Part shown: piece after piece, positions 43,793 to 62,409 of the stretch | How positions within the stretch are numbered: the stretch's first letter is position 1 | Layout: each line of letters begins with the position of its first letter | Assembly (NCBI RefSeq): GCF_916618885.1 | Contig: NZ_CAKAKH010000001.1 | Location: 186,001-250,000, forward strand | Source: Marinilactibacillus sp. Marseille-P9653 | Lineage (GTDB): Bacteria; Bacillota; Bacilli; Lactobacillales; Carnobacteriaceae_A | Length of the DNA stretch: 64,000 bases | Direction of reading: 5' to 3' | Program-made: the position numbers and the translations under genes | Notes under the pieces: generated by a model | Database searches by the model: none | What the model saw: only the letters and a program-made list of their open reading frames with translations | What the model was told of the DNA's origin: nothing

Positions 43793-43793
43793 C

Positions 43794-45287: not shown

Positions 45288-45949
45288 AAGAGAAAAGTTC
45301 CACAGACACACTTTTTTATAAGGTTACTCAGCACATCTACTACTTTTTATTAACGAATGCCTATTTTCTAGTCAGCAATACACTGATCCTACTGGCGCTT
45401 ATTCTATTACCGCTGAGTATTTCTAATGTACTCATTTACGGGGTGGCACTGATTCCAACTGGTGCGAGCTTGACTGCGCTTTTTTATGCGATGGGGAAAC
45501 TCTACAGAGAAAAGACGATTCAGCCCACAAAGGACTACTGGAAAGCCTACCTAGATAACTTCAAGGAAAGCACGAAGTATTGGTTGATTATGATTGCTTT
45601 ACTTATCGTTTTAAGCGTAGATATCTTATACGTACTAGAACGCGGGTGGATTTTTTTAACGGTCGTTAGCTTGATTGTATTAGCGATTATGATGGTGACC
45701 ATGATTTATGCTTTCTCAATTCTAGCGCGCTTTGAAGTGACCACTAAAAATCTTATGATTTTTTCCATCCTACTACTCTTCAGAAATAAACTAAACTCAC
45801 TGTCTTTATTGTTTTTACTTGTCGCTTTTATAGTGATCCTTTATGGATTCGCTGGCTATGCGCTATTGTGCTTGTTTGCGATCGCCAGCTATTACTTTAT
45901 GCGAAGCAATCATAAAGTACTGGAAAAGCTGATGCATGATTTTCAATGA
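45284..45949 (+). CDS. DUF624 (YesL-like) membrane protein
   Basis: The 221-residue protein has five predicted helices and the DUF624 N-terminal pattern FLLTNAYFLVSNTLILLALI. It overlaps the response regulator gene by four bases, so it is translated with it. The same three-gene arrangement (YesL, YesM, YesN) occurs in pectin-degradation loci of Bacillus. Its molecular role is unknown. It resembles the protein at 10065-10790. GGAGG lies within the end of the upstream gene. Confidence 0.75.
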   Translation: MKEKSSTDTLFYKVTQHIYYFLLTNAYFLVSNTLILLALILLPLSISNVLIYGVALIPTGASLTALFYAMGKLYREKTIQPTKDYWKAYLDNFKESTKYWLIMIALLIVLSVDILYVLERGWIFLTVVSLIVLAIMMVTMIYAFSILARFEVTTKNLMIFSILLLFRNKLNSLSLLFLLVAFIVILYGFAGYALLCLFAIASYYFMRSNHKVLEKLMHDFQ

Positions 45950-45965
45950 GTTGAATAGGTTATCC

Positions 45966-46006
45966 GTAAAAAATGGTTACTTTTTGATAAAGTGTCCATT
46001 TTTTAC
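45966..46006 (+). terminator. Hairpin after the two-component genes
   Basis: GTAAAAAATGG (45966-45976) pairs perfectly with CCATTTTTTAC (45996-46006). The T run is inside the stem's right arm, so it can terminate in both directions. Confidence 0.65.
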
Positions 46007-46037
46007 TATGTTGAGGGCTGAATAGTACTATATTAAT

Positions 46038-46051
46038 TGTAAGCGTTATCA
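46038..46051. promoter_or_regulatory. cre (CcpA) site before the LplABC-type operon
   Basis: TGTAAGCGTTATCA matches the cre consensus TGWAARCGNTNWCA at all 14 positions. It lies 43 bases before the first importer gene and should give catabolite repression of import and of the enzymes downstream. Confidence 0.85.
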
Positions 46052-46093
46052 ATTATTATAAGGATAAGAAATAAAACAAAGAGGGTGGTATAG

Positions 46094-47074
46094 ATGGAAT
46101 CTTCCAAAGTAATGGACGTGGAGAAGCAGGGATTGGTCAAATCTAGGCCAAGAAAAATACCGAAAAAAAGAATTACATGGGCAGCTATTAAACGACAAAA
46201 ACTATTAATCTTAATGACCTTACCATTTGTTATCTGGTTATTGATTTTCGCTTATACACCACTGATTGGGTGGTTGGTAGCCTTTCAGGAATACAGACCG
46301 CAAAACGGATTTTTCGGATCTGATTGGGTAGGGCTCAAGCAATTCACGGCACTATTCAATGACTCACTATTTTACACAGCATTAAAAAACACATTAGGCA
46401 TGGGTGGATTAGGACTCATATTCGGAACAGGTACAGCTATCTCGTTTTCTCTATTACTGAATGAATTAAGATTTTCAAGGTTCAAAAAGTTCACACAAAC
46501 AATTTCCTATTTACCACATTTCGTATCTTGGGTTGTTGTAGCAAACTTAGTCACAACCGTTCTAGCCAATACAGGTGTCGTCAATGAGCTATTACAATTC
46601 TTAAACATTACAAGTTCGCCCATTAACTTTATGGCTAAACCGAATATGTTCTGGGGAATTGTAACAGGTGCAGATGTTTGGAAGTCAACAGGCTGGAATG
46701 CCATCATTTACTTATCAGCGATGACAAGTATTGATCAGGAAATGTACGAAGCCGCTCATGTGGATGGGGCAAGTCGTCTCCAGAAAATGTGGCACATCAC
46801 GTTACCATCAATAAAAGGGATTATCGTGATTCTGATGATTATGAATATCGGAAATGTTATCAATATCGGATTTGAACGACAAATGCTTTTAGGAAATAAC
46901 ATTGTAGCAGATGCAGCGATTGTTATCGAAAAATATGCGTTAGATTACGGTATCGGAATGTTTAGGTACTCTTACGGTACAGCGATTGGGATCTTCAAAT
47001 CTGTTATCTCTATTGCCTTGATTTTCACCTTTAATTCAATTGCTAAGAAAACCAGCGACATTTCAATTATGTAG
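46094..47074 (+). CDS. Oligosaccharide ABC transporter permease, LplB type
   Basis: The 326-residue permease has a long basic N-terminus (1-35), six predicted helices and the family pattern LMTLPFVIWLLIFAYTPLIG with the EAA loop MYEAAHVDGASRLQKMWHIT. LplB-type permeases import plant cell-wall oligosaccharides in Gram-positive bacteria. GAGGGTGG precedes the ATG. First gene behind the cre site; the partner permease follows after 14 bases. No ATPase is encoded. Confidence 0.9.
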   Translation: MESSKVMDVEKQGLVKSRPRKIPKKRITWAAIKRQKLLILMTLPFVIWLLIFAYTPLIGWLVAFQEYRPQNGFFGSDWVGLKQFTALFNDSLFYTALKNTLGMGGLGLIFGTGTAISFSLLLNELRFSRFKKFTQTISYLPHFVSWVVVANLVTTVLANTGVVNELLQFLNITSSPINFMAKPNMFWGIVTGADVWKSTGWNAIIYLSAMTSIDQEMYEAAHVDGASRLQKMWHITLPSIKGIIVILMIMNIGNVINIGFERQMLLGNNIVADAAIVIEKYALDYGIGMFRYSYGTAIGIFKSVISIALIFTFNSIAKKTSDISIM

Positions 47075-47088
47075 AAAGGAGGGTCAAT

Positions 47089-48021
47089 ATGGATACACCA
47101 ATGAAAAAAGTTGTGACAAAGAAAAAGAAGAAAAAATGGAGCGACCGCGCAACCCCACTAGATTATGCGATTGCAGTACTGATGGTTATCGTTGTCATCG
47201 TGACACTTTATCCTTTCCTACACGTACTTGCAATTTCTTTCAATAGTTCTGTAGATACAGCAAGAGGGGGGCTAACGATTTTCCCGAGAGAATTCACTTT
47301 ACAGAATTATCGGGAGGTATTTGGTTCTAATAATAATCTATTGATTGCGTTTAGGAATTCCGTATTAAGAACCGTTCTTGGAACGATTTCAGCAACATTT
47401 TGTTGTGCGGTATTAGCCTATATTTTAAGTAGAAAAAGCTATGTATTAAGAAGACCACTGGGTATTCTACTTGTTTTAACGATGTATGTAAGTGGAGGCT
47501 TGATTCCAACTTACTTGGTTATTAGAGGTTTAGGGCTGGTCAATACATTTTCTGTATACATTATCCCAGGACTAATTAATGCTTTCAATGTCATAGTGAT
47601 AAGATCCTTTATTGATGGCTTACCAGAAGCACTGGAAGAATCCGCTAAAATGGATGGCGCAAACGAGATTACAATTTTCTCTAAAATCATCATGCCGCTT
47701 TGTGTACCAGTACTTGCGACCGTTGCCTTGTTCGTAGCTGTTGGGCAGTGGAATAACTGGTTCGATACTTATCTTTATGCAGGGGCCAATGTCAATTTGA
47801 CAACCTTGCAGTATGAATTGATGCAGATTCTGAACAATGCCTCTTCTATGAGAGCCGCGGATGTTAGTGGTCTAAGTCAAACAGGAGGAACCGCCATACG
47901 AGTCAATCCTGAATCCATTAGAATGGCCATCACGATCATCGTAACCTTCCCGATTGTCTGTGTATATCCATTCCTCCAGAAATACTTCGTATCTGGACTA
48001 ACGCTTGGCGCAGTAAAATAA
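47089..48021 (+). CDS. Oligosaccharide ABC transporter permease, LplC/YtcP type
   Basis: The 310-residue permease has a Lys-rich N-terminus, six predicted helices, TLYPFLHVLAISFNSSVDTA after helix 1 and the EAA loop LEESAKMDGANEITIFSKII. It ends KYFVSGLTLGAVK, the common ending of LplC proteins. AAGGAGG precedes the ATG. It forms the channel with the LplB-type protein. Confidence 0.92.
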   Translation: MDTPMKKVVTKKKKKKWSDRATPLDYAIAVLMVIVVIVTLYPFLHVLAISFNSSVDTARGGLTIFPREFTLQNYREVFGSNNNLLIAFRNSVLRTVLGTISATFCCAVLAYILSRKSYVLRRPLGILLVLTMYVSGGLIPTYLVIRGLGLVNTFSVYIIPGLINAFNVIVIRSFIDGLPEALEESAKMDGANEITIFSKIIMPLCVPVLATVALFVAVGQWNNWFDTYLYAGANVNLTTLQYELMQILNNASSMRAADVSGLSQTGGTAIRVNPESIRMAITIIVTFPIVCVYPFLQKYFVSGLTLGAVK

Positions 48022-48071
48022 TCAATGAGCTTGAGCAGTTTTAAAAAAGAAGAGGAAAAGAGGAGAAAATA

Positions 48072-49748
48072 ATGAAAGCACTTACGTTAAAAAGCACAAT
48101 TATGTTGTCCAGTTTATTCTTGTTAGCAGCTTGTGGTAATGGTAACAGTGATGGTGAAGGCAATTCAGGATCAGCTGATGGTGATGATGACGTACTGACA
48201 CTCACTATGTTCAGTGCAGATATGAGTCAAAATGACCCATTCGATAATGCTGTGGCACAAGAAATTCTTGAAAAAACAGGTGTGAAACTCGAATTTTCTT
48301 ATCCAGTTGGGGGAGATGACCAAGAAGCTGTTGCACTGATGATTGCCAGTGGGGATTATCCAGACTTGATTTATGGAAAAGGGGGAATCAATCAACTAAT
48401 TGATTCTGGTGGTGTGATTCCTTTAGAAGATATGATCGAAGAAAAGGGAGACAATATTAAAGCCATGTACGGCGATCAGTTAGATCGTTTAAGACGTAGT
48501 TCAGATGATCCAAGTATTTACCATGTAGGAACTGCTGGTGTTGAAAATATGTATCTAGAAACAAGTGGTACTTTGAGACTTCAAATGGAAGTTTTAAAGG
48601 AGCTTGGTTATCCAGAAATCAATACGCTTGAAGATTACGAAAATGCCTTAACAGAATATATAGAAATGCATCCAACTAATGAAGAAGGCGAACCATGGAT
48701 TCCACTGTCTCTTTCTGGTAGTGACTGGCGTTGGTTGATTACAGTTGGAGATCCAGCAAGTGCAGTAGGCGGTATTGAAGGTGATGGTCAATGGTATGTA
48801 GCAGATGACGGAGAAGCAACGTATAAATTCCAGCGTCCAGAGTTAAAACAATACTTTGAATGGTTGAACGGCATGAATGCGAAGGGCATGTTGGATGAAG
48901 AGTCATTCACACATACAAATGACACATACGTATCTAAACTTTCTTCTGGTAATGTACTTGGTATTGCCGATCAGGACTGGAACTTCACAGAAGCAGAAGC
49001 AGCACTCAGAGCAGATGAAGATGAGTGGTCTTTATGGGCACCACTACCTGTAGGTTTGGACGAAGATACTGAAGTTCAAACATTGAAAGATTATGGCTTC
49101 ACAGGGATGACAGGTGTGTCTATTACATCTGGATCAGAACATCAAGAAGAAGCTTTTGAGTTCTTAGATTGGTTTGCAACAGAAGAAGCTCAGATCTTAA
49201 TGAACTGGGGTGTTGAAGGCGTCCATTATGAAATCGTAGACGGCAAACGCGTTCAATTAGAAGAAGACCTTAAAAATGCTCAAACGAATCCAAACTATTC
49301 AATCGAATCAGGAGTTGGAGCTTATATCCACCCGTTCCCACAATGGGGTTCTGCAGCAGAAGATTCTAACGGACAAACAATCGGTAGAATGGGCGCAGAT
49401 GACATTATCGCACAGTATTCTGAACCTGAAAAAGAAGCACTGGAAGGATATGGGGTTGATCTTTGGGTAGATTTATTCCCAGCAACTGAAGACCTTGAAA
49501 CACCGAAACATGGTCGTGCTTGGGAGATCGCTTTACCGACAGGAAGTAACGTTAATGTGATTCAACAAAGAGCAGATGACTACACAACTCAAAAAATCAC
49601 AGAAGCTATCCTAGCAAATCCAGCAGATTTTGATGGTATCTGGGAAGAAATGCAAGCTGAATTGGAATCAATGGGTATTGAAGATGCAAATGCTGAAATG
49701 ACGGAAATCATTAGAGGTAGACTAGAACTATGGGGAGAAACTGAATAA
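48072..49748 (+). CDS. Oligosaccharide-binding lipoprotein, LplA/YtcQ type
   Basis: The 558-residue lipoprotein has a lipobox (LFLLAACG, Cys near residue 22) and a Gly/Ser/Asp spacer. The long solute-binding domain is typical of the LplA group, which binds larger oligosaccharides. Markers are EILEKTGVKLEFSYPVGGDD, LMIASGDYPDLIYG and FEFLDWFATEEAQILMNWGV. In this locus the ligand is most likely a xyloglucan oligosaccharide released by the anchored GH5. AGAGGAG precedes the ATG. A strong hairpin follows, before the enzyme genes. Confidence 0.9.
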   Translation: MKALTLKSTIMLSSLFLLAACGNGNSDGEGNSGSADGDDDVLTLTMFSADMSQNDPFDNAVAQEILEKTGVKLEFSYPVGGDDQEAVALMIASGDYPDLIYGKGGINQLIDSGGVIPLEDMIEEKGDNIKAMYGDQLDRLRRSSDDPSIYHVGTAGVENMYLETSGTLRLQMEVLKELGYPEINTLEDYENALTEYIEMHPTNEEGEPWIPLSLSGSDWRWLITVGDPASAVGGIEGDGQWYVADDGEATYKFQRPELKQYFEWLNGMNAKGMLDEESFTHTNDTYVSKLSSGNVLGIADQDWNFTEAEAALRADEDEWSLWAPLPVGLDEDTEVQTLKDYGFTGMTGVSITSGSEHQEEAFEFLDWFATEEAQILMNWGVEGVHYEIVDGKRVQLEEDLKNAQTNPNYSIESGVGAYIHPFPQWGSAAEDSNGQTIGRMGADDIIAQYSEPEKEALEGYGVDLWVDLFPATEDLETPKHGRAWEIALPTGSNVNVIQQRADDYTTQKITEAILANPADFDGIWEEMQAELESMGIEDANAEMTEIIRGRLELWGETE

Positions 49749-49760
49749 CTTGTTCAACCA

Positions 49761-49817
49761 GATGAAAAGTATATATCCTCCTTTTATAGGAACATATACT
49801 TTTCATCTCTTTTTTTA
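49761..49817 (+). terminator. Terminator/attenuator between binding protein and enzyme genes
   Basis: GATGAAAAGTATAT (49761-49774) pairs with ATATACTTTTCATC (49794-49807), followed by a run of T. The ROK gene starts 25 bases later without a clear new promoter, so partial read-through is likely. Confidence 0.8.
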
Positions 49818-49841
49818 TCAGACTGTGAAGGAGCATGAACG

Positions 49842-50753
49842 ATGGCCTATATTTGTTTTGACATCGGTGGTACCAACTGTAAGCACGCTTTAATCAATGA
49901 TAAGGGCGATATTTTAAAACAAGGATTTTTTCCAACAATTCATACTAATACAGAAAATTTTGTCGCATCGATGGTTAATCAGATCCTCTTGTATGAAAAA
50001 ACAAAGACCATTCAAGGAGTAGGCGTGAGTATTCCTGGCGTAGTGGAAAGAGGTACAGGGAAACTGATTACAGCTGGAGCAATTTTACATTTGTATGGAA
50101 AAAACATACAAGAATTGTTGCTTCAGTACATATCGTATCCAATTTTTGTGGAGAACGATGCAAAATGTGCATTAATGGCTGAGCTAACATTTGGTGCAGC
50201 CGAAGGACTGAGAGATGTTGTCTTGATGACCGTAGGGACAGGAATCGGAGGCGCCGTTGCTTATGACCAAAATATTTTGTATGGAAATGAGTACAAAATC
50301 GGAGAGTTTGGCATGATGCGTATGGGGATTGACCAACACCCCGACAAAACGATGCATGAATACGCTTCTACTGCCGCTTTGATTCGAGAATATAAAGCAC
50401 TGAAAAATGTTTCACAAGAAACATTGGTGGATGCTCGAACGATTTTAGAAGAGATGAATACGGATAATGAAGTTAACGCGCTCGTTGATCGCTGGACGTA
50501 TTACCTAGCGACAGGCCTATTCAATGTTTCAGTCTCGTTTAATCCACAAAGAATCGTTATCGGCGGTGGGATTAGTGCGAATCCTAAACTGCTTCCAATC
50601 CTCAAAAAGCAATTGGAAAAAAATATTCACTGGGATGACCACCGCACAGAAATCGAAACAGCAGTTTATAGAAACGATGCGGGTATTATTGGAGCGTGGA
50701 TCTTTTTAATAGATAAAATCAATACAAAAATAAGCGAAGAAAAAGGAGCCTAA
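49842..50753 (+). CDS. ROK-family sugar kinase, BglK-like (probable beta-glucoside kinase)
   Basis: The 303-residue kinase has the ATP phosphate loop FDIGGTNCKHALIND, the catalytic Asp in FVENDAKCALMAE (near residue 105) and MTVGTGIGGAV. The zinc motif with three Cys found in most ROK glucokinases and repressors is absent; after GEFG the sequence reads MMRMGIDQHPDKTMHEYAST. This zinc-free form, together with GAILHLYGKNIQELL, resembles BglK, which phosphorylates cellobiose and other beta-glucosides at the non-reducing glucose using ATP. The next gene, one base away, encodes a GH1 enzyme with phosphate-binding residues, which supports this role. A simple hexokinase role is the alternative. GAAGGAG precedes the ATG. 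Confidence 0.75.
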   Translation: MAYICFDIGGTNCKHALINDKGDILKQGFFPTIHTNTENFVASMVNQILLYEKTKTIQGVGVSIPGVVERGTGKLITAGAILHLYGKNIQELLLQYISYPIFVENDAKCALMAELTFGAAEGLRDVVLMTVGTGIGGAVAYDQNILYGNEYKIGEFGMMRMGIDQHPDKTMHEYASTAALIREYKALKNVSQETLVDARTILEEMNTDNEVNALVDRWTYYLATGLFNVSVSFNPQRIVIGGGISANPKLLPILKKQLEKNIHWDDHRTEIETAVYRNDAGIIGAWIFLIDKINTKISEEKGA

Positions 50754-50754
50754 C

Positions 50755-52224
50755 ATGTATCAAGAGAAACTAGATGCATTCCCGTCATCTTTTTTATGGG
50801 GAGCAGCTTCGGCGGCTTACCAGATAGAAGGGGCGTATGATACAGATGGAAAGGGACCGTCTATCTGGGATGAATTCACTAAAATAGAAGGCAAGACGTA
50901 CGAAGGTACCAATGGAGATGTGGCAATCGATCACTACAACCGCTACAAAGAAGACGTCAAACTGATGACGGATATGGGATTAAAAGCTTACCGTTTCTCC
51001 GTGTCATGGGCTAGAATATTGCCGGATGGAGAAGGTCAGGTTAACGAAGAAGGATTAGCTTTCTACGAAAATCTAGTAGATGAACTGAACAAATACGGAA
51101 TTGAACCGGTGTTGACTTTATATCACTGGGATTTACCGCTTGCACTTCAAGAAAAATATAATGGCTGGGAATCTAGAGAGACGATTTCGGCTTTCAAAGA
51201 ATATTGTAAAGTGCTTTATGAACGATTAGGAGAAAAGGTGCGTTATTGGGTTACTTTTAATGAACAGAATGTCTTTACAAGCATGGGCTATAGATGGGCA
51301 ACACATCCGCCAAATGTAACGGATACGAAGCGGATGTTTGAAGCCAATCACATTATCAATCTGGCGAATGCAGAAGCTATTGTTTTATTCAAAGAAATGG
51401 TTTCTAATGGAAAGATTGGTCCAAGCTTCGGTTACGGCCCGGTTTATCCACTGACTGCAGATCCAAGTGATGTGCTAGCAGCAGAAAATGCGCATGAATT
51501 TAGCAATAGTTGGTGGCTAGATGTTTATTGTAAAGGGAGATATCCAGTAGCGGTCTTCAAACAGCTGGAGCGCAAAGGTATCGCACCGACTGTAACACCA
51601 GAAGACAAGGAACTACTAAAAAAAGCAAAACCAGACTTTCTTGGAATCAATTATTATCACGGTGGAACGGTTAAGCAGAATAAGATTGAAAAGCCTGCGC
51701 AGGATAATGAACAGGATAAGAAATTCTCGTCAACGGATCCTTACTTGATGCAACCAAAAGAAGAACAATCGCAAAGTCCTGAGATTCCAATGTATCAATC
51801 ACTTGATAATCCATATCTTGAAAAAACAGAATGGGGCTGGGAAATCGATCCAGTTGGTTTCCGTTTAGCACTTAGACAAGTTTACGCAAGATATGGCCTT
51901 CCGATTTTCGTAACAGAGAACGGCTTAGGTGCAAAGGATATGCTGACAGAAGAAGGCGAGATCAATGACGATTACCGCATTGATTACCTTAATCAACACG
52001 TTGTCGAGATGAAAAAAGCCATTACAGATGGCGTAGAAATGATTGGCTATTGTGCTTGGTCGTTCACGGATCTACTAAGCTGGTTGAATGGCTACAAGAA
52101 ACGCTATGGTTTTGTTTTCGTCAACCGAACAGAACAAGATGAAAAAGATTTGAAGAGAATACCGAAGAAAAGCTATTTCTGGTACAAAGATGTCATCGAA
52201 CAAAATGGCGAAAATATAAAATAG
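50755..52224 (+). CDS. GH1 6-phospho-beta-glucosidase (by signature)
   Basis: The 489-residue enzyme has the GH1 start FLWGAASAAYQIEGAYDTDG, the acid/base Glu in VTFNEQNVFTSMG (near 165) and the nucleophile Glu in IFVTENGLGAKD (near 387). The aglycone/glycone loop reads SWLNGYKKRYGF: the Ser, the Lys at +7 and the Tyr at +9 are the phosphate-binding residues of 6-phospho-beta-glycosidases, whereas enzymes for unphosphorylated sugars have Glu at the Ser position. PTS genes, which normally supply phosphorylated substrates, are absent; the adjacent ROK kinase could supply them. NEQ replaces the usual NEP. An acidic insertion (about 305-350) is unusual. AAAGGAG lies before the ATG. Confidence 0.8.
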   Translation: MYQEKLDAFPSSFLWGAASAAYQIEGAYDTDGKGPSIWDEFTKIEGKTYEGTNGDVAIDHYNRYKEDVKLMTDMGLKAYRFSVSWARILPDGEGQVNEEGLAFYENLVDELNKYGIEPVLTLYHWDLPLALQEKYNGWESRETISAFKEYCKVLYERLGEKVRYWVTFNEQNVFTSMGYRWATHPPNVTDTKRMFEANHIINLANAEAIVLFKEMVSNGKIGPSFGYGPVYPLTADPSDVLAAENAHEFSNSWWLDVYCKGRYPVAVFKQLERKGIAPTVTPEDKELLKKAKPDFLGINYYHGGTVKQNKIEKPAQDNEQDKKFSSTDPYLMQPKEEQSQSPEIPMYQSLDNPYLEKTEWGWEIDPVGFRLALRQVYARYGLPIFVTENGLGAKDMLTEEGEINDDYRIDYLNQHVVEMKKAITDGVEMIGYCAWSFTDLLSWLNGYKKRYGFVFVNRTEQDEKDLKRIPKKSYFWYKDVIEQNGENIK

Positions 52225-52234
52225 GAGTGACAGG

Positions 52235-54550
52235 ATGAAGTTTCTAGACGGAGGATGGCTGGTTAAAGAAGGATACGAAGTTGATTACCCAGCCCATGTA
52301 TATGCAACAAGAAAAACAGATAAAAAACTAACCGTGTATGCACCATTCAGACATATCGCAGATAAAGGTGGTACGTTGGATGGAGGCATGATGACGGTAG
52401 AACTGAGTTCACCACACGAAAATATTATAGGTGTCAAAGTTTATCATCACAAAGGATCTGTTGCAGTAGGCCCATCATTTGAACTGAATAAACAAAATCC
52501 TTCTGTTGAAATTACGGATGGAGAAACAGAAGCTTCACTGAAAAGTGGCGCACTTTCTGCTCACGTTAAAAAAGGCAATCAATTTGAAATTAGTTTTGAA
52601 AAAGACGGAGAAGTGTTAACCTCCAGTAAATCTAGAGGGCAAGCGTATATTCGCAAGCCACTTGAAAATCAATCTTATATCAGTGAACAACTAACCATCG
52701 ACGTAGGTGAACTGGTTTATGGACTAGGCGAACGTTTTACTTCTTTCGTTAAAAATGGCCAGACAGTCGATATCTGGAATGCAGATGGTGGAACAGGAAC
52801 AGAACAAGCCTATAAAAATATTCCTTTTTATATGACAAATAGAGGCTACGGCATATTCGTCAACAGTCCTAAAAAAGTCAGTTACGAAATCGGGAGTGAA
52901 AAAGTATCTCGCGTGCAATTCAGCGTGCCTGGAGAAGAAATGGAGTACTTTATCATTGCAGGTGACTCGATGAAAGAAGTGCTTGAAAATTACACGAATT
53001 TGACCGGTAAGCCGGCACTTCCACCAGCTTGGTCATTTGGGTTATGGATGAGTACCTCTTTCTTGACGGATTACGATGAAGCAACGGTCAATCACTTTGT
53101 CGATGGCATGATTGACCGAGACATTCCTTTGGAAGTTTTCCATTTCGACTGCCTGTGGATGGAAGAATATGAATGGGTCAACTTTGAATGGGACAAGCGT
53201 ACATTCCCAGAACCACAGAAAATGCTGACAAGACTTAAGGAAAAAGGGCTTAAAATTTGTGTCTGGATCAATCCGTATGTTGGGCAAAAATCACCATTAT
53301 TTGACGAAGGAATGGAAAAAGGCTACTTTATCAAACGACCTAATGGAGACGTTTGGCAGTGGGATAAATGGCAAGCAGGACTAGCGATTATTGATTTTAC
53401 CAATCCAGAAGCCGTTACGTGGTATCAAAATCACCTAGCGAAATTGATGGATATGGGTGTCGATTCGTTTAAAACCGATTTTGGTGAACGGATTCCAGTA
53501 GATGCTGTCTACTATGATGGATCAGATCCTGAACGGATGCACAACTATTACACACAATTGTACAATCAAATTGTTTTTGACTTATCAAAATCTAAAAACG
53601 AAAACAACGAAGCGGTTGTCTTTGCTCGCTCTGCGACAGTAGGGGGACAGAAATTCCCAGTCCACTGGGGCGGAGATAGTACGTCAGATTATCCATCCAT
53701 GGCAGAGTCATTAAGAGCGGGCTTATCCTTTGGTATGAGCGGATTTGGTTATTGGAGTCATGACATTGGTGGATTTGAAGAAGGGTGTACACCTGACTTG
53801 TACAAGCGCTGGACACAATTTGGCCTACTTTCTTCTCATAGTCGGTACCATGGTAGTAAAGAATACAAAGTGCCTTGGATCTACGATGAAGAAGCAGTAG
53901 ATGTCACACGTAGCTTTACAAAACTGAAATTGAGCTTGATGCCGTACTTGATGAATCAAGCCGTTGTAGCGACTGAAGGAATACCAATGATGCGCTCGAT
54001 GGTTCTTGAATTCCCAGAAGACATGACGAGCCATACGCTCGATAGACAATTTATGTTGGGTGATTCTTTATTAGTAGCGCCAATTTTTAATGATAAGGGA
54101 ACGGTTAGTTATTACGTACCTGAAGGCACATGGACGAACTATTTGACGAATGAGAAAATCGAAGGTGGAAAATGGCATAACGAAACACACGGCTATGATA
54201 GATTGCCACTACTCGCTAGACCGAATAGTATTATTGTTGAAGGAAATCAAAATACACAAGCAGAATATAACTATGCCGAAGCCGTTACTTTGCATGTCTT
54301 TGAATTGTCTGTTGGTGCAATAGCCAAAACGCGTATTGTAGACCGTTCAGGTAAAGTCATCGGAACAGCACACGTTCAATTTTCTGAAGGTGCTTATACA
54401 GTTAATGCTGAAAACATAGATGTAAAAGCTGTTTTATTCCATAATGTTCATGATGTAGATTCAGTTGAAAGTGGCAAGATGGAAGCGACTGATTTGGGTA
54501 CAATGGTTTATCTAGATGGATCAGAATGTAAGATTCAGTTAACGAAATAA
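52235..54550 (+). CDS. GH31 alpha-xylosidase, YicI type
   Basis: The 771-residue enzyme has the same length as YicI of Escherichia coli and its key motifs: HFDCLWMEEYEWVNFEWD, the nucleophile Asp in FKTDFGERIPVDAVYYDGSD (near residue 413), the acid/base Asp in HWGGDSTSDYPSMAESL (near 480), and GYWSHDIGGFEEG and LLSSHSRYHGSK. No signal peptide, so it acts inside. It removes alpha-1,6-xylose from the non-reducing end of xyloglucan oligosaccharides (isoprimeverose units). This is the most diagnostic enzyme of the locus. GGAGTGACAGG precedes the ATG, ten bases after the GH1 gene. Confidence 0.92.
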   Translation: MKFLDGGWLVKEGYEVDYPAHVYATRKTDKKLTVYAPFRHIADKGGTLDGGMMTVELSSPHENIIGVKVYHHKGSVAVGPSFELNKQNPSVEITDGETEASLKSGALSAHVKKGNQFEISFEKDGEVLTSSKSRGQAYIRKPLENQSYISEQLTIDVGELVYGLGERFTSFVKNGQTVDIWNADGGTGTEQAYKNIPFYMTNRGYGIFVNSPKKVSYEIGSEKVSRVQFSVPGEEMEYFIIAGDSMKEVLENYTNLTGKPALPPAWSFGLWMSTSFLTDYDEATVNHFVDGMIDRDIPLEVFHFDCLWMEEYEWVNFEWDKRTFPEPQKMLTRLKEKGLKICVWINPYVGQKSPLFDEGMEKGYFIKRPNGDVWQWDKWQAGLAIIDFTNPEAVTWYQNHLAKLMDMGVDSFKTDFGERIPVDAVYYDGSDPERMHNYYTQLYNQIVFDLSKSKNENNEAVVFARSATVGGQKFPVHWGGDSTSDYPSMAESLRAGLSFGMSGFGYWSHDIGGFEEGCTPDLYKRWTQFGLLSSHSRYHGSKEYKVPWIYDEEAVDVTRSFTKLKLSLMPYLMNQAVVATEGIPMMRSMVLEFPEDMTSHTLDRQFMLGDSLLVAPIFNDKGTVSYYVPEGTWTNYLTNEKIEGGKWHNETHGYDRLPLLARPNSIIVEGNQNTQAEYNYAEAVTLHVFELSVGAIAKTRIVDRSGKVIGTAHVQFSEGAYTVNAENIDVKAVLFHNVHDVDSVESGKMEATDLGTMVYLDGSECKIQLTK

Positions 54551-54570
54551 GATATTTCAGGAGGGCATCA

Positions 54571-56595
54571 ATGAGTAAACAATTGTTTGACCGCATGCTA
54601 TACGGAGGAGACTATAATCCAGAACAATGGCCAAAAGAAATTTGGGACGAAGACCTCCGTATGTTTAAAAAAGCCCATATCAATTCAGCGACGATCAACG
54701 TCTTTTCATGGGCGAAACTACAGCCATCTGAAGAAGAATATCATTTTGAAGAGCTGGATGAAATCGTTGAAAGACTCTCAAATGATGGCGTGGATATTGT
54801 ATTAGCGACTTCTACAGCGGCTTTGCCAGCTTGGATGTGTAGAAAATATCCTGACGTTACTCGAGTAGATTTCGAAGGTAGAAAACATGGATTCGGACAT
54901 CGACACAATCATTGTCCGAACAGCCCAAACTTCAAGCGATTCGCTAGTGAACTGGTCTATAAACTCGCTAAGCGGTATGGAGAGCATCCAAGTATCAAAC
55001 TTTGGCACATTTCCAATGAATATGGTGGCGAATGTTACTGTGACAACTGTGCAAAAGCTTTCCGTGTTTGGGTAAAAAACAAATACGGTTCTATCGAAGC
55101 AGTTAATGAAGCATGGAACATGCATTTTTGGGGCCACACACTCTATAGTTTTGACGACATTATTCCTCCAAACTATTTAGGTGATGGGATCAGCGATACA
55201 GCCGCAGCCTTTGCAGGATTGTCGATTGATTATCGTCGATTCAATTCGGATGGTCTGCTGGATAATTACAAGATGGAACGAGATATTATTCGCTTGTTTG
55301 ACGAGGAAACACCCGCAACAACGAATCTGATGGGAAGCTACAAGGGGCTTGATTACTTTAAGTGGGCAAAAGAGTTGGACATTGTTTCTTGGGATAATTA
55401 TCCAAGTCACAATACCCCCCTTAGTCATGTAGCGATGAATCATGATTTAATGCGTGGACTGAAAGATGGACAAAGTTTCATGTTGATGGAACAAACGCCA
55501 AGCCAACAAAACTGGCAACCTTATAATTCATTAAAACGTCCTGGTAAGATGCGTGCGCAAAGTTACCAGACAATTGCTCATGGCGCTGATACGATTCAAT
55601 TCTTCCAGCTTCGCCGCTCAAAAGGTGCCGTAGAAAAATTCCATGGCGCTGTTATTGAACATGCGGGATATGAAAATACGCGTGTCTTTAGAGAAGTCAC
55701 GGCGCTTGGAAAAGAATTGGAACAACTGGGTGATCAGTTGATTGGTGCAGAAACGAAAGCCAAAGTAGGGATCTATTTTGACTGGGATACCTACTGGGCT
55801 TTAGAGTATACAAGTGGTCCGACGGTTGATCTGCGTTATGTTGAACAAATCCAGCACTATTACGACGCATGCTACGCTAAACAAGTAGCGGTCGATATGC
55901 TTCATGAAGGGTCCGATTTTAGTCAGTACGACGTCGTTCTTGCGCCTGTTTTATATATGGTAAAAGAAGGACTGACAGAAAAATTTGAGCAGTTTGTTGA
56001 AGCAGGCGGGACTTTTGTTACGACCTTTATGAGTGGAATTGTGGATCAAAGTGACAATGTTCATTTAGGCGGATATCCAGGTCCACTAAGAAATGTACTA
56101 GGTATCTGGGCAGAAGAAATCGATGCTTTAGCACCTGACCAAACGAATGCTGTGCATACACAATCAGAATTTTTCAAACAATCGACTTATACGTGTCGGA
56201 TGTTATGTGTTCTCATTCATCCAGAAGCTGCAGAGGTCGTGGCGGAATACGGCTCCGATTTCTACAAAGGAATGCCGGCTGTAACGAAAAATGTATTTGG
56301 CAAAGGTGAAGCTTGGTATGTTGCGACCGTACCGGAACAAGGTTTGCTGAATGAATTGATTGGACATATACTAAATGAGAAAGCCATTGAAGGTTTTGAT
56401 GATCTACCAGAAGGGGTAGAAATTGCTTGTCGCGTAAAAGAAGAGAAACACTATTACTTTGTGATGAATCATACTGAAACACGTCACGAGATCGATCTTC
56501 CATTCGAAGGATACAAGAACCTGCTGAATGATGAGACCGTGGAGAAGACGGTAACGCTTGAACCTTTTGCGGTAAACTTGCTTATCGCACCATAA
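54571..56595 (+). CDS. GH42 beta-galactosidase
   Basis: The 674-residue enzyme has the GH42 opening MLYGGDYNPEQWPKEIWDED, the acid/base Glu in KLWHISNEYGGECYCDNC (near 150) with the zinc-site Cys residues, and the nucleophile Glu in FMLMEQTPSQQNWQ (near 310). The trimerisation domain (about 395-600) and small C-terminal beta domain follow. It is cytoplasmic. In this locus it would remove beta-1,2-galactose from xyloglucan side chains after defucosylation. GGAGGGC precedes the ATG. Confidence 0.93.
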   Translation: MSKQLFDRMLYGGDYNPEQWPKEIWDEDLRMFKKAHINSATINVFSWAKLQPSEEEYHFEELDEIVERLSNDGVDIVLATSTAALPAWMCRKYPDVTRVDFEGRKHGFGHRHNHCPNSPNFKRFASELVYKLAKRYGEHPSIKLWHISNEYGGECYCDNCAKAFRVWVKNKYGSIEAVNEAWNMHFWGHTLYSFDDIIPPNYLGDGISDTAAAFAGLSIDYRRFNSDGLLDNYKMERDIIRLFDEETPATTNLMGSYKGLDYFKWAKELDIVSWDNYPSHNTPLSHVAMNHDLMRGLKDGQSFMLMEQTPSQQNWQPYNSLKRPGKMRAQSYQTIAHGADTIQFFQLRRSKGAVEKFHGAVIEHAGYENTRVFREVTALGKELEQLGDQLIGAETKAKVGIYFDWDTYWALEYTSGPTVDLRYVEQIQHYYDACYAKQVAVDMLHEGSDFSQYDVVLAPVLYMVKEGLTEKFEQFVEAGGTFVTTFMSGIVDQSDNVHLGGYPGPLRNVLGIWAEEIDALAPDQTNAVHTQSEFFKQSTYTCRMLCVLIHPEAAEVVAEYGSDFYKGMPAVTKNVFGKGEAWYVATVPEQGLLNELIGHILNEKAIEGFDDLPEGVEIACRVKEEKHYYFVMNHTETRHEIDLPFEGYKNLLNDETVEKTVTLEPFAVNLLIAP

Positions 56596-56658
56596 TCAGA
56601 CGAATCATTTAGAACGACATCCGATGTTTTTACTGCTAAAAAACCGGGAGGACAGTCA

Positions 56659-58869
56659 ATGATGAAAAGATTGATGGCAATACTCGCTACTTTAATGGTC
56701 GTGATACCTTGGGCTTCAACGAAGAAAGTTCATGCAGCAGAAGATACGCCGTCTCAGCGTTATGTAGAGGCGATGGGTAGTGGATGGAATCTAGGAAATA
56801 CGTTTGATGGCTTTGATGAAGCGGGGGATACCGGCGAAACATCTTGGTCTAACCCAGTTGTGACAAGAGAACTGATTAGCAGCGTGAAAGACAAAGGTTA
56901 CGACAGTATTCGACTGCCGTTCACGGCCCATATGCGCGTTGGAGGAGCGGAGTCTGATTATCAACTAGACGAAGCCTTCCTTGATCGCTATGAAGAAGTT
57001 GTCAACTGGGCATTGGAAGAGGATCTGTATGTCATGGTCAATGTGCACCATGATTCGTGGATTTGGCTAGCAGATTGGGATGGTAGTACAGAATCAGAAG
57101 ACTATACGAAATACGTTCGAATCTGGGAACAGTTGGCAGATCATTTTAAAGACTATGACGAACGTGTCATGTTTGAATCGATTAACGAACCACAATTCTA
57201 TACAGATGATGAAGCGACTGCTTTAAGTCATCTTGAAACAATCAACGATTCGTTCCATACGATCGTTCGAAACTCAGGTGGACAAAATGCAGAAAGAATG
57301 CTCGTTTTACCCACATTAGTGACTGATGCAGCGCAAAATAGATTGGATGCTTTGTACCAACAAATCATTGAATTTGAAGATGAGAATATTATTGCGACGA
57401 TTCATTATTATAGTGAGTGGGTATTCAGTGCAAACTTGGGAACAACGGAGTTTGACGAAGAATTGTGGGATGGTGTCACTGCCAGAACCAGTTTGATCAG
57501 TGTGTTTGACCGCATTGCTGCGACCTTTACGGAAAATGGAATTGGTGTAGTGGTCGGAGAGTACGGTTTACTAGGTTATGATAAAGGTGACGAGGTAAAC
57601 CAGTTAGGTGAAACGCTGAAATTCTTGGAGTTTATCAATTTCTATGCTGAGGAAAAAGGATTCAACCTGATTCTTTGGGATAATGGTCAGCATATCGATC
57701 GATATACGTACGAATGGAAAAATGCGTTATTTGGGAATATGATTGAAGCTTCAATGGAGGGGCGTTCTGCTTATTCAGAAGGATTGGATACAATATTCTT
57801 GAATCCTACAGACCTTGAAAGCGGTGTGAGTATTCCGCTGACATTGAATGGACGAGCACTGGAAGTGATTAGTGAAGGCGATACTGCCTTAACAGAAGGT
57901 GTGGATTACACGATTCAAGGAACGACGCTTCAACTAACAGAAGCTTATCTAAATCAATTGCTAGAAAGAACCAGTGGTGTGACAGGAAGCGAAACAAGCC
58001 TTAGAATGCAATTCAACGGTGGCGCAGACTGGTATCAAACGCTCGTTTATAGCGAAGCACCGGTGATGTCTGAAGCACAAGGCACGGTCAGCGAAGGCAT
58101 CCGTATCCCAACAGCATTCAATGGAAGCCAACTGAAGTCAGTGGTTTCTCAAAATGAAGCAGGAGCCATTGTTTCAAATAACAACTGGTGGGGATTCCTA
58201 GAACACAGTAGTGAATTTTTACCCAATGAAGAGGAAAATACAGTGGATATGCTGGCAAGATATACGTCAATTCTGTCAGATGACCTGTATACTTTAACTT
58301 TTACTTATTATGATGGAACAGTGATTGAGTATCAATTGACCGTTCAAGATGGTGTGATCAGTGGCCAAGCTATAACGGCAGTGGATGTACCGGAAGAAGA
58401 ACCGGAAGTCGTGCCAGATCCAGAGATAGAACCGGAACCAGAGACAGAGCTTCCAGTAGAGGAAGTGCCTGAAGCACCGGTTGAAGCAGTACCTGGAGAA
58501 GGGATTGACCCAGAAGTGCCCGTTGAAGAAGAACCAGCGACACAACCAGACGAAGAGGTTACCGTACCTGAAACGGAAAGTCCAACGGTAACGGAACCGG
58601 AAACAAGTCCGGAAGCTGTCGATGAAGACACTTCAGAGGATTTAAATGAAGAAGCAACTGAAGGCAGGAGTGAAGCTATTTCTAGTAGCGAAGGAGCTCA
58701 TCATGTACGATTAACGGAGGAACCCACACGTTCTCACGGAAAAGAGGATGTGACTAAAGCACAGATGCTACCTAAAACAGGAATGGCGGTCCCGATTACC
58801 GGATTAGTCGGATCCCTATTTTTAAGTAGTGGCTTAGGTATGTTTTTCTGGAATAAAAAAAGAAAATAA
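56659..58869 (+). CDS. Cell-wall-anchored GH5 endoglucanase with X2 and CBM46-like modules
   Basis: The 736-residue protein has a signal peptide (1-28, cut after VHAA) and a GH5 domain, subfamily 4-like (about 33-375), with GSGWNLGNTFDG, the acid/base Glu in FESINEPQF and the nucleophile Glu in VVVGEYGLLGYD. An X2/Ig-like module (about 376-475, LNPTDLESGVSIPLTLNGRA) is followed by a CBM46-like module (about 476-575, NNWWGFLEHSSEFLPN), a Pro/Glu/Val linker (about 575-690) and the sortase signal LPKTG (near 704), hydrophobic helix and KKRK. The GH5-X2-CBM46 order is that of BhCel5B, which is active on xyloglucan and mixed-linkage glucan. It should be the only extracellular enzyme of the locus. 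GGGAGG precedes the double ATG. Confidence 0.88.
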   Translation: MMKRLMAILATLMVVIPWASTKKVHAAEDTPSQRYVEAMGSGWNLGNTFDGFDEAGDTGETSWSNPVVTRELISSVKDKGYDSIRLPFTAHMRVGGAESDYQLDEAFLDRYEEVVNWALEEDLYVMVNVHHDSWIWLADWDGSTESEDYTKYVRIWEQLADHFKDYDERVMFESINEPQFYTDDEATALSHLETINDSFHTIVRNSGGQNAERMLVLPTLVTDAAQNRLDALYQQIIEFEDENIIATIHYYSEWVFSANLGTTEFDEELWDGVTARTSLISVFDRIAATFTENGIGVVVGEYGLLGYDKGDEVNQLGETLKFLEFINFYAEEKGFNLILWDNGQHIDRYTYEWKNALFGNMIEASMEGRSAYSEGLDTIFLNPTDLESGVSIPLTLNGRALEVISEGDTALTEGVDYTIQGTTLQLTEAYLNQLLERTSGVTGSETSLRMQFNGGADWYQTLVYSEAPVMSEAQGTVSEGIRIPTAFNGSQLKSVVSQNEAGAIVSNNNWWGFLEHSSEFLPNEEENTVDMLARYTSILSDDLYTLTFTYYDGTVIEYQLTVQDGVISGQAITAVDVPEEEPEVVPDPEIEPEPETELPVEEVPEAPVEAVPGEGIDPEVPVEEEPATQPDEEVTVPETESPTVTEPETSPEAVDEDTSEDLNEEATEGRSEAISSSEGAHHVRLTEEPTRSHGKEDVTKAQMLPKTGMAVPITGLVGSLFLSSGLGMFFWNKKRK

Positions 58870-58873
58870 AGCG

Positions 58874-58910
58874 AAAGACGCTGTGAGAAAAATCTCCTAG
58901 CGTCTTTTTG
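58874..58910 (+). terminator. Terminator at the end of the xyloglucan locus
   Basis: AAAGACGCT pairs with AGCGTCTTT around 16 bases, followed by TTG after a T run. Confidence 0.85.
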
Positions 58911-58993
58911 TTGAAAAGCGATAAAAAAGATCATTGAAAAAGTCTGGACAGTTCTCTACCATAAAGTGTAAATAACAGTAGGGAGCGATTTTT

Positions 58994-60825: not shown

Positions 60826-60898
60826 GGTTCCTTAGCTCAGTTGGGAGAGCACTACCTCGACAAGGTAGGGGTCACTGGTTCGAGCCCAGTAGGGACCA
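60826..60898 (+). tRNA. tRNA-Val (anticodon GAC)
   Basis: A full cloverleaf can be drawn. The acceptor stem is GGTTCCT with AGGGACC, the D arm GCTC/GAGC, and the anticodon stem CTACC/GGTAG with loop TCGACAA (anticodon GAC at 60859-60861). The variable region is GGGTC, and the T arm is ACTGG/CCAGT with loop TTCGAGC. The discriminator base is A and CCA is not encoded. A tyrosine-recombinase gene begins about 70 bases downstream, so the 3' end is the likely attachment site. Confidence 0.96.
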
Positions 60899-60938
60899 CT
60901 AGATATAACAGCATTTGTAAGAGTCCTTTGTTTAAAAA

Positions 60939-60967
60939 GTACCTCGCGGGTACGACATAGGGTACGA
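60939..60967. repeat. Direct repeats and small palindrome between tRNA-Val and integrase
   Basis: GTACC and GGTAC (60939-60943, 60949-60953) form a small hairpin. GGGTACGA occurs twice, 12 bases apart (60948-60955, 60960-60967). They are close to the expected element end, so they may be integrase arm sites. Not confirmed. Confidence 0.4.
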
Positions 60968-60968
60968 T

Positions 60969-62039
60969 TTATTTTTTCGTCAAAAAATCAGAAAAAGAAT
61001 TCGCCGATTGTTTATGAGAGGTATCTTGAACATGGGTGTACACGTCCAAAGTCATACGGACATCAGCGTGCCCCAATCTCTCTTGAACAATTCGCGGATT
61101 TTTTTCAATTTGAGATAAGAGAGTGGCATGGGTATGTCGCAAATCATGAAACCTGATTTTCTTTACCCCGGATTTTTTACATATAGTTTCCATTGCTCGA
61201 CGAACATTACGATGCATCATATAGCTCCCAACTTTAGATGCACACACAATTTCTGTATCTATTGTCTGAGAAACTTTGTGCTCTTTTAATATATTTATCT
61301 GACTTTTTGACAGGTAAATATATCGCTCTGAAGCTTTTGTTTTTAAAGACGTTCTTTTTCCTGTCCGTCGATCTAATCCTTCGGTAAGGTCAATATATTT
61401 TTCGTGAAAATTAATATCTGACCAATGAAGGCCAAGAATTTCTCCTAATCGCATCCCAGTATTTATAGCTAACCAAAAGACTATATATGAATGGTAGCCT
61501 TCTGCTTGGTTAAGAAATTTCGTGATTTCCTTTTTAGTCCAAGTATCAAAGCGCTTATACTTAATCTTAGGTTTATCTACTCTATCCATAGGATTAAATT
61601 TCATAAACTCCCATGATTGAGCTTGTTTGAACACTTTATTCATAATCAGACACATACGCACGACATAACTATTGGCATATGTTTTTTCTTTTGTAGCAAG
61701 CCATTTTTGTATCTCAATTGGCTTAATTGAAGTAATTTTTCTTGAGCCAAAAGTAGGCGCAATATGTTTTTGATATAAAGACCATTCATTATACAAATTT
61801 GTTTCATTCATATTTCTGGGAGCAATTAGAGAAAAGTAATCCTCTGTTATCTCACTAAATAATTTAGATGTCTTCTTAACAAAGAGACCTTCGGACAGTT
61901 CCTTAGTCAAAACTGCCTCATCATATTTAGCTTGATTATTAAGCTTGTGCCAATCCCCCTTTATTCTATCTCCTAGATGGTAAACACTTGCTCTGTATCT
62001 TTTCTCTCCATTTTTTAATTTCTTCTGTTCAATTGCCAT
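60969..62039 (-). CDS. int: Tyrosine-recombinase integrase of the integrative element
   Basis: The 356-residue integrase has an N-terminal arm-binding domain (GEKRYRASVYHLGDRIKGDW), a core-binding helical domain (about 60-160) and the catalytic domain with Arg in NTGMRLGEILGLHW, HDLRHTHATLL, and the nucleophile Tyr in HADVRMTLDVYTHV. This is the Tn916/phage Int type. ATG 62037-62039 is chosen because AAAGGAG lies eight bases upstream. It points toward and ends next to tRNA-Val, the usual layout at one end of a tRNA-integrated element. Confidence 0.9.
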   Translation of the reverse strand: MAIEQKKLKNGEKRYRASVYHLGDRIKGDWHKLNNQAKYDEAVLTKELSEGLFVKKTSKLFSEITEDYFSLIAPRNMNETNLYNEWSLYQKHIAPTFGSRKITSIKPIEIQKWLATKEKTYANSYVVRMCLIMNKVFKQAQSWEFMKFNPMDRVDKPKIKYKRFDTWTKKEITKFLNQAEGYHSYIVFWLAINTGMRLGEILGLHWSDINFHEKYIDLTEGLDRRTGKRTSLKTKASERYIYLSKSQINILKEHKVSQTIDTEIVCASKVGSYMMHRNVRRAMETICKKSGVKKIRFHDLRHTHATLLSQIEKNPRIVQERLGHADVRMTLDVYTHVQDTSHKQSANSFSDFLTKK

Positions 62040-62066
62040 AATTGTTTCTCCTTTCAAGAATGAAAG

Positions 62067-62105
62067 AAGAACAACCTACATACTGTAAGTATATAAGCTG
62101 TTCTT
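62067..62105 (-). terminator. Hairpin between the Xis-like and integrase genes
   Basis: AAGAACA pairs with TGTTCTT, with an inner ATACT/AGTAT stem. It could regulate read-through into the integrase gene. Confidence 0.4.
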
Positions 62106-62112
62106 TGTAATT

Positions 62113-62409
62113 TCAATGATGAGGCTGCTCTTTTATCCACTCTAACAAGAAAGATTGTGTCTCTTTGACAGGGAACAACCACTTCCTACCAATTTTCCTA
62201 CGTATTTTTTCGAACCGAGAGTCATGGAAGAATGTTTTATCAATAAATCCTTTGCTCATACCAGTAATTTGTTGTAAGTCATTAAACGTATAAAAGACTT
62301 TTTCAGTACCAATTGCTTCTAGTTTTTTCTGAATTTGATCTTTAACATGATTTTCTATAATCCTGTCGTCAATTTTGATTTGGAGAAAGGGTTTTTCTTC
62401 TATAGACAT
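62113..62409 (-). CDS. Excisionase-like helix-turn-helix protein
   Basis: The 98-residue protein has a helix-turn-helix of the excisionase/MerR-like type (TFNDLQQITGMSKGFIDKTF, then GRKWLFPVKETQSFLLEWI). It lies directly upstream of the integrase gene, as Xis does in Tn916-type elements, and probably directs excision or controls int. It is longer than Tn916 Xis. GAAAGGAC lies before the ATG. Confidence 0.65.
   Translation of the reverse strand: MSIEEKPFLQIKIDDRIIENHVKDQIQKKLEAIGTEKVFYTFNDLQQITGMSKGFIDKTFFHDSRFEKIRRKIGRKWLFPVKETQSFLLEWIKEQPHH

Follow-up and report, generated by a model that had tools for sequence, protein, structure and literature searches.

What does a lactic acid bacterium do with a multimodular endo-glycanase that carries a cell wall sorting signal and is encoded beside a sugar importer? 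The question is raised by a locus in the window analyzed here, a 64,000-nucleotide stretch of the Marinilactibacillus sp. Marseille-P9653 genome (contig NZ_CAKAKH010000001.1), whose coordinates are used throughout. A preliminary description made from the letters of this stretch had proposed a sortase-anchored GH5-X2-CBM46 endoglucanase, derived from the type of Bacillus halodurans BhCel5B by addition of a spacer and an anchor, and held close to its importer for selfish capture of oligosaccharides. We therefore asked how far architecture, substrate, location, and history of the enzyme agree with this proposal.

A GH5-X2-CBM46 enzyme with a cell wall sorting signal

Positions 56,659–58,869 (plus strand) correspond exactly to an open reading frame of 736 amino acids, with an ATG start, no internal stop, and a ribosome-binding-site-like stretch (GGGAGGA) just upstream. 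The sequence reads as a signal peptide at residues 1–27 (56,659–56,739, ending in VHAAE, hydropathy peak 2.96 within the first 35 amino acids), followed by a GH5 catalytic domain at residues 59–345 (56,833–57,693; Pfam PF00150, Cellulase, E 5.7e-46), an Ig-like X2 module at residues 388–458 (57,820–58,032; PF03442, CBM_X2, E 1.6e-15, 57.4 bits for a cut-off of 28.9), and a CBM46 at residues 467–569 (58,057–58,365; PF18448, E 7.7e-15, 55.5 bits for a cut-off of 26.5). All three matches lie well over the Pfam gathering cut-offs, and the X2 and CBM46 assignments, on which the preliminary description had staked its reading beforehand, hold in these profile searches.

The C-terminal part likewise bears out that description. 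CBM46 is followed by an acidic Glu/Pro-rich spacer, recognized by composition (residues 572–703, 58,372–58,767), of 132 amino acids with ~27% Glu, ~14% Pro, and a net charge of about −38; in two congeners the spacer measures 103 and 107 residues, with its composition kept and its sequence hardly so. The protein ends in LPKTG, a hydrophobic stretch, and the basic tail KKRK (residues 704–736, 58,768–58,866), scoring 17.2 bits against the LPXTG model TIGR01167 (cut-off 15.9). Because this model exceeds its cut-off at just three sites across the whole 2.55-Mb genome, the GH5 protein being one of them, LPKTG is more than a chance match. The protein thus has a signal peptide, LPXTG, a hydrophobic stretch, and a basic tail, in line with a predicted wall-anchored enzyme.

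The predicted fold is that of BhCel5B without its W181 loop

BhCel5B of Halalkalibacterium halodurans (PDB 4v2x) aligns with residues 6–571 (E 9e-123, ~40% identity), and its three modules are those of the window enzyme, arranged identically. For the mature modules (residues 28–572), an AlphaFold2 model computed with a 33-row alignment reached a pLDDT of 92.3 and a pTM of 0.90; it replaced a poor earlier model of the full-length protein based on 5 sequences (pLDDT 57.8). Foldseek searches of the PDB with this model ranked 5e09 and 4v2x first, with TM scores of 0.91/0.93, and X2 and CBM46 follow the predicted catalytic domain packed as in 4v2x. The module order claimed earlier is hence found in alignment and predicted fold alike. 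BlCel5B and the Aspergillus oryzae xyloglucanase Xeg5A, the latter with one entry containing XXLG, took the next ranks; the best fold matches outside the trimodular group are to a xyloglucanase solved with XXLG (9l3o). The solved structures nearest to the window enzyme are described as GH5_4, which is its candidate subfamily. Glu177 (acid/base, in NEP) and Glu301 (nucleophile, in GEYG) are invariant throughout the 33-row alignment.

One feature of BhCel5B is missing. An Asp occupies the position of W181, and the respective loop, which deepens the cleft in BhCel5B, is three residues shorter. As BlCel5B is also devoid of the W181 loop (PMC4817029), this loop is a feature of BhCel5B and does not define the family. 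With the loop missing, the activity of BhCel5B is not simply transferable to the window enzyme. BlCel5B, lacking the loop, relies wholly on its ancillary modules (PMC4817029); by analogy, a strong dependence on CBM46 is predicted for the window enzyme.

The GH5 gene closes a twelve-gene locus

The GH5 gene is the last of twelve genes that lie on one strand (plus) within 19 kb (39,733–58,869). The locus begins with a GH95 family protein, a putative alpha-1,2-fucosidase (39,733–42,009; PF22124, E 4.5e-59), followed by a sensor histidine kinase of the His_kinase family (41,984–43,792; PF06580), an AraC-type response regulator (43,794–45,287; Pfam), and a DUF624 membrane protein (45,284–45,949; PF04854). 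Two ABC importer permeases (46,094–47,074 and 47,089–48,021; both PF00528) and a substrate-binding lipoprotein (48,072–49,748) come next. The remaining genes encode a ROK-family sugar kinase (49,842–50,753; Pfam E 4.6e-45), which reached no equivalog cut-off in the profile search, a GH1 beta-glucosidase (50,755–52,224; Pfam E 4.5e-176; 469 bits against TIGR03356, slightly below the cut-off of 478.5), a GH31 alpha-xylosidase of the YicI type (52,235–54,550), and a GH42 beta-galactosidase (54,571–56,595; Pfam E 2.1e-150) upstream of GH5. Enzyme and importer are accordingly encoded together in an operon-like arrangement, as had been proposed.

All intergenic gaps but one are shorter than 100 bases. 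The largest, of 144 bases, precedes the first permease gene and holds the sole perfect cre-like site (CcpA) of the 64 kb (46,037–46,051, plus strand, exact match; 0.12 expected), and M. kalidii, Alkalibacterium pelagium, and G215, a genome of another Lactobacillales family, each have a perfect site in the equivalent position. Directly downstream of the GH5 gene lies an intrinsic terminator (58,870–58,912, plus strand; folding energy −20.4 kcal/mol, z −6.65, with a T run). Gene spacing, the gap with the cre site, and the strong terminator together argue for a unit, made as one or two transcripts, with the gene of the anchored enzyme at its end. A further cre-like site upstream of the GH95 gene, spotted by eye, was dropped, as it fails the consensus at one mismatch, and promoter-like matches were no commoner than in shuffled sequence.

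The gene order is common to M. kalidii, M. piezotolerans, A. pelagium, and G215. Between the DUF624 and first permease genes, M. piezotolerans, A. pelagium, and G215 harbor an additional lipoprotein-like open reading frame of ~440 amino acids (L010:15353-16714, L097:6290-7630, L090:4989-6302), where the window has only the 144-base gap with its cre site. Further downstream in the window (60,826–62,409), a tRNA-Val adjoins a tyrosine integrase gene (60,969–62,057, minus strand) and a small open reading frame, probably the edge of an integrated element near the locus.

Neighboring genes point to xyloglucan

The substrate is where the preliminary description needs amending: a GH5 endo-enzyme with both catalytic Glu residues stands, whereas the notion of an endoglucanase acting on cellulose was dropped once the neighboring genes were annotated. 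The GH31 protein scores 1241 bits against the alpha-xylosidase equivalog NF007940, about twice the cut-off of 606, and aligns end to end with E. coli YicI (PDB, E 1.5e-281). In Ruminiclostridium cellulolyticum, a GH42 enzyme strips galactose side chains from xyloglucan oligosaccharides (PMC4780118). The best PDB match of the importer lipoprotein is 9PMY (E 2.1e-108, 38.2% identity over 511 amino acids), the Anaerocellum bescii protein Athe_2052, whose Kd for XXXG is 14 nM (PMC12710961). Ligand contacts of Athe_2052 were taken from the modeling in that paper, whose numbering equals the chain numbering plus 15; all ten mapped residues agree by letter. Y109, K111, W226, W311, and W494 are all conserved in the window receptor; E56D, I162T, D167N, N234D, and N436S are changed, and Q88 is opposite a gap. 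In receptors of the syntenic loci, the aromatic residues and the Lys of the groove are mostly conserved, with Phe or Tyr in places; in receptors of 21–29% identity encoded beside other GH5 genes they are not. Kinship and groove residues therefore point to a receptor of the xyloglucan-oligosaccharide type.

The fucose step of the pathway is doubtful. The GH95 catalytic motif is D-x-N instead of the usual N-x-N in all four relatives read (39,733–42,009 of the window; L075, L076, and L096:5379-7628), and no fucose isomerase (PF07881) was found in the genome. We discarded the idea that D-x-N marks a dead enzyme or a new specificity: the solved GH95 protein 8zbv, named an alpha-L-fucosidase, aligns with D-x-N too, so that the motif is only a caution.

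Taken together, the GH31 alpha-xylosidase, GH42, GH95, the xyloglucan-type receptor, and a xylose isomerase gene (xylA) present in the genome argue for xyloglucan as substrate, and the GH5 protein is probably better called an endo-xyloglucanase. Xyloglucan need not be its sole substrate, since GH5_4 enzymes of the same architecture such as BlCel5B also cut beta-1,3-1,4-glucan and CMC (PMC4817029). Taken further, the anchored enzyme could act mainly on mixed-linkage beta-glucan or soluble cellulose chains, with xyloglucan as one of several substrates. The activity of BlCel5B, which like the window enzyme lacks W181, is indeed highest on beta-glucan (100, compared with 45 on xyloglucan), BhCel5B requires its CBM46 for beta-glucan (PMC4817029), and the GH1 enzyme could process cello-oligosaccharides. 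Unbranched glucans, however, call for no GH31 alpha-xylosidase, GH42, GH95, or XXXG-type receptor, all of which the locus encodes, and we regard a mainly beta-glucan-directed enzyme as quite unlikely. Counting against the xyloglucan reading, the stretches surrounding related GH5-X2-CBM46 genes in Gracilibacillus and Paenibacillus contain no GH31 relative, and three of the changed receptor residues (D167N, N234D, N436S) are polar contacts to the ligand.

A proposed route: cutting outside, importing, and finishing inside

Among the hydrolases of the locus, only GH5 bears an export signal; GH95, GH1, GH31, and GH42 have no evident signal peptide, and the receptor carries a lipoprotein signal. This distribution suggests that the polysaccharide is cut outside, imported, and finished inside the cell. 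The locus contains no ATPase gene for the importer, and two MalK/MsmK-type ATPases are encoded elsewhere in the genome. A single sortase was found (TIGR01076 over cut-off), which appears class-A-like by similarity, its best named PDB matches being of class A. The sortase gene is convergent with a 162-amino-acid open reading frame ending in the LPXTG-like LPQTS (L014:8904-10180), the strongest anchor match of the genome.

Modules, sorting signal, gene set, receptor kinship, and synteny can be read from sequence; from these we infer which substrate is used, that the enzyme sits on the wall, in what order the steps proceed, how the genes are regulated, and that the producer retains the products. 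We consider it likely that the enzyme is an anchored BhCel5B-type endo-xyloglucanase, joined to the wall by sortase via LPKTG, and that, within a xyloglucan utilization locus, it is the one hydrolase to face outward. Once the GH5 enzyme is exported, the single sortase (class-A-like) would attach it to the cell wall, with the spacer taking it through the wall. Tethered there, it would cut xyloglucan into oligosaccharides of the XXXG type with their side chains, which the lipoprotein and the two permeases would import whole, powered by a shared MsmK-type ATPase. Inside, GH95 (if a fucosidase), GH42, GH31, and GH1 would take off fucose, galactose, xylose, and glucose, and the two-component system and the cre site may switch the genes.

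A second locus of the genome resembles this arrangement. Another of the three clear LPXTG proteins is a GH53 endo-galactanase (Pfam E 5e-137) with an LPQTG signal, whose gene comes after those of a LacI regulator, an ABC importer, and a GH42 enzyme on the same strand. This locus spans L084:3068-12367 (G000:C1:343067-352366), and the GH53 protein has bacterial Ig-like domains. It also ranks first among the further PF00150 matches of the genome; one lies in a GH1 gene, and the others are weak. Thus GH5 and GH53, both polysaccharide-cutting enzymes, make up two of the genome's three clear sortase substrates. The GH53 locus lends independent support to the view that this organism follows a scheme of an anchored cutter, an importer, and enzymes acting inside the cell. 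The preliminary description placed the enzyme on the wall near its importer and suggested selfish capture, which would fit both the export of GH5 as the only hydrolase of its locus and a second importer locus ending in an anchored GH53.

Anchors recur on the same catalytic core

GH5-X2-CBM46 enzymes are rare in Lactobacillales (8 of 398 genomes, in 5 genera). The three Marinilactibacillus species carry LPKTG, LPATG, and LPQTG signals; G215 combines an LPNAG anchor with a syntenic locus, and the enzyme of G313 has an LPQTG anchor outside such a locus. Alkalibacterium has the locus and no anchor. A. pelagium contains two tandem GH5 copies (L012:14940-18469): one lacks an evident signal peptide, and the second has a broken reading frame and, in place of LPXTG, a hydrophobic stretch at its C-terminus. 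The Paenibacillus and Halalkalibacterium homologs are unanchored as well. Such homologs leave room for a sorting signal that is used inefficiently, with most of the enzyme released to act in the medium. We judge this very unlikely, given that the signal is kept in three Marinilactibacillus species despite an unconserved spacer sequence, that G215 keeps LPNAG, and that the genome has a sortase.

Outside Lactobacillales, the same core ends in LPKTG in Clostridium sp. D53t1, in LPDTA in five Gracilibacillus, in SLH-like repeats in G. oryzae and a LysM-like end in a Lachnoclostridium (both read by eye), and in a C-terminal hydrophobic anchor in a Lachnospiraceae MAG. That different types of retention module recur on one core would also suit an anchor serving adhesion to plant fibers, in which the cell would hold on to xyloglucan surfaces through CBM46 and X2, with product capture of lesser importance; the long acidic spacer and the reported increase of BhCel5B action on plant cell walls by CBM46 (PMC4817029) agree with this. 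Yet the GH5 gene shares its locus with genes for an importer and for cytoplasmic exo-enzymes, and the catalytic residues of the enzyme are intact. Adhesion as the main role seems unlikely, and adhesion and capture are compatible with each other.

When the core is placed in a tree, BhCel5B and the window enzyme fall into separate clades, each well supported; anchored members are found in both halves of the tree, and the nearest relatives of BhCel5B (Gracilibacillus) carry LPDTA. We therefore rejected the account of a BhCel5B to which spacer and anchor had been added, and it is further weakened by a CBM46-GH5 protein with LPXTA already reported in B. cellulosilyticus (PMC3617157). The sortase label requires five changes on this tree, indicating that tethering was gained or lost repeatedly.

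Discussion

Each half of this arrangement has precedents. BhCel5B shares the modules of the window enzyme and differs in having the W181 loop, in lacking spacer and sorting signal, and in its clade. Bcell_1191 of Bacillus cellulosilyticus also combines GH5, CBM46, and a sortase signal; most of the activity with which this organism degrades polysaccharides was associated with the cell wall, and a GH53 protein with an LPXTA anchor is encoded too (PMC3617157). Bcell_1191 relies on LPXTA and class D sortases, in contrast to LPXTG and a class-A-like sortase here, and the excerpt of PMC3617157 used here does not present it as a member of a xyloglucan locus.

The R. cellulolyticum locus Ccel_2451-2458 shares GH31, GH42, a beta-glucosidase, a sensor with an AraC-type regulator, and an ABC importer, including a family 1 binding protein and the absence of an ATPase gene, and related clusters include alpha-fucosidase genes (PMC4780118, Figure 12). 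Its receptor binds XXXG with an affinity of 3.65 nM, and disruption of the receptor gene stops growth on xyloglucan (PMC4780118). There, extracellular cutting is performed by cellulosomal enzymes encoded outside the locus, and a GH3 enzyme stands where the window has GH1 (PMC4780118). The A. bescii importer Athe_2052-2054, with the same aromatic groove in its receptor and likewise no ATPase in its locus, is served by the extracellular CelF (GH74-CBM3-CBM3-GH48), encoded outside the locus and described with no mention of a sortase anchor (PMC12710961). The Gram-positive polysaccharide utilization loci (gpPULs) of Roseburia bring the enzyme for degradation together with a transporter and a regulator, as in the window, but were described in Lachnospiraceae, and none of 10 tested strains grew on xyloglucan (PMC5320581).

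GH5-CBM46 enzymes with an anchor are therefore already known, from B. cellulosilyticus (LPXTA), and so are xyloglucan loci of Gram-positive bacteria, from Ruminiclostridium and Anaerocellum; what appears new is their union in one locus of lactic acid bacteria, with a parallel anchored-GH53 galactan locus in the same genome. Literature searches on sortase with xyloglucanase and on LPXTG with xyloglucan utilization, covering mostly titles and abstracts, did not return this combination, and we claim no priority. R. cellulolyticum and A. bescii, whose systems are the Gram-positive ones for xyloglucan described so far, make the first cut with cellulosomal or extracellular enzymes encoded elsewhere in the genome, whereas here a single, predicted wall-anchored enzyme is encoded alongside its importer, in salt-loving lactic acid bacteria known more from sea, salt, and cheese than from the breakdown of plant fiber.

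The same locus with an anchor in Marinilactibacillus and without one in Alkalibacterium constitutes a natural pair, which could be used to test if tethering to the wall keeps products for the producer, a point usually argued from Bacteroides. We put forward only tentatively the more general proposal that Carnobacteriaceae and at least one other family of lactic acid bacteria use plant polysaccharides by equipping each importer locus with a single endo-enzyme anchored by sortase, GH5-X2-CBM46 where xyloglucan is the substrate and GH53 where it is galactan, with the wall as a zone of selfish digestion. If true, this plan would make the wall of these bacteria comparable to the outer membrane of Bacteroides.
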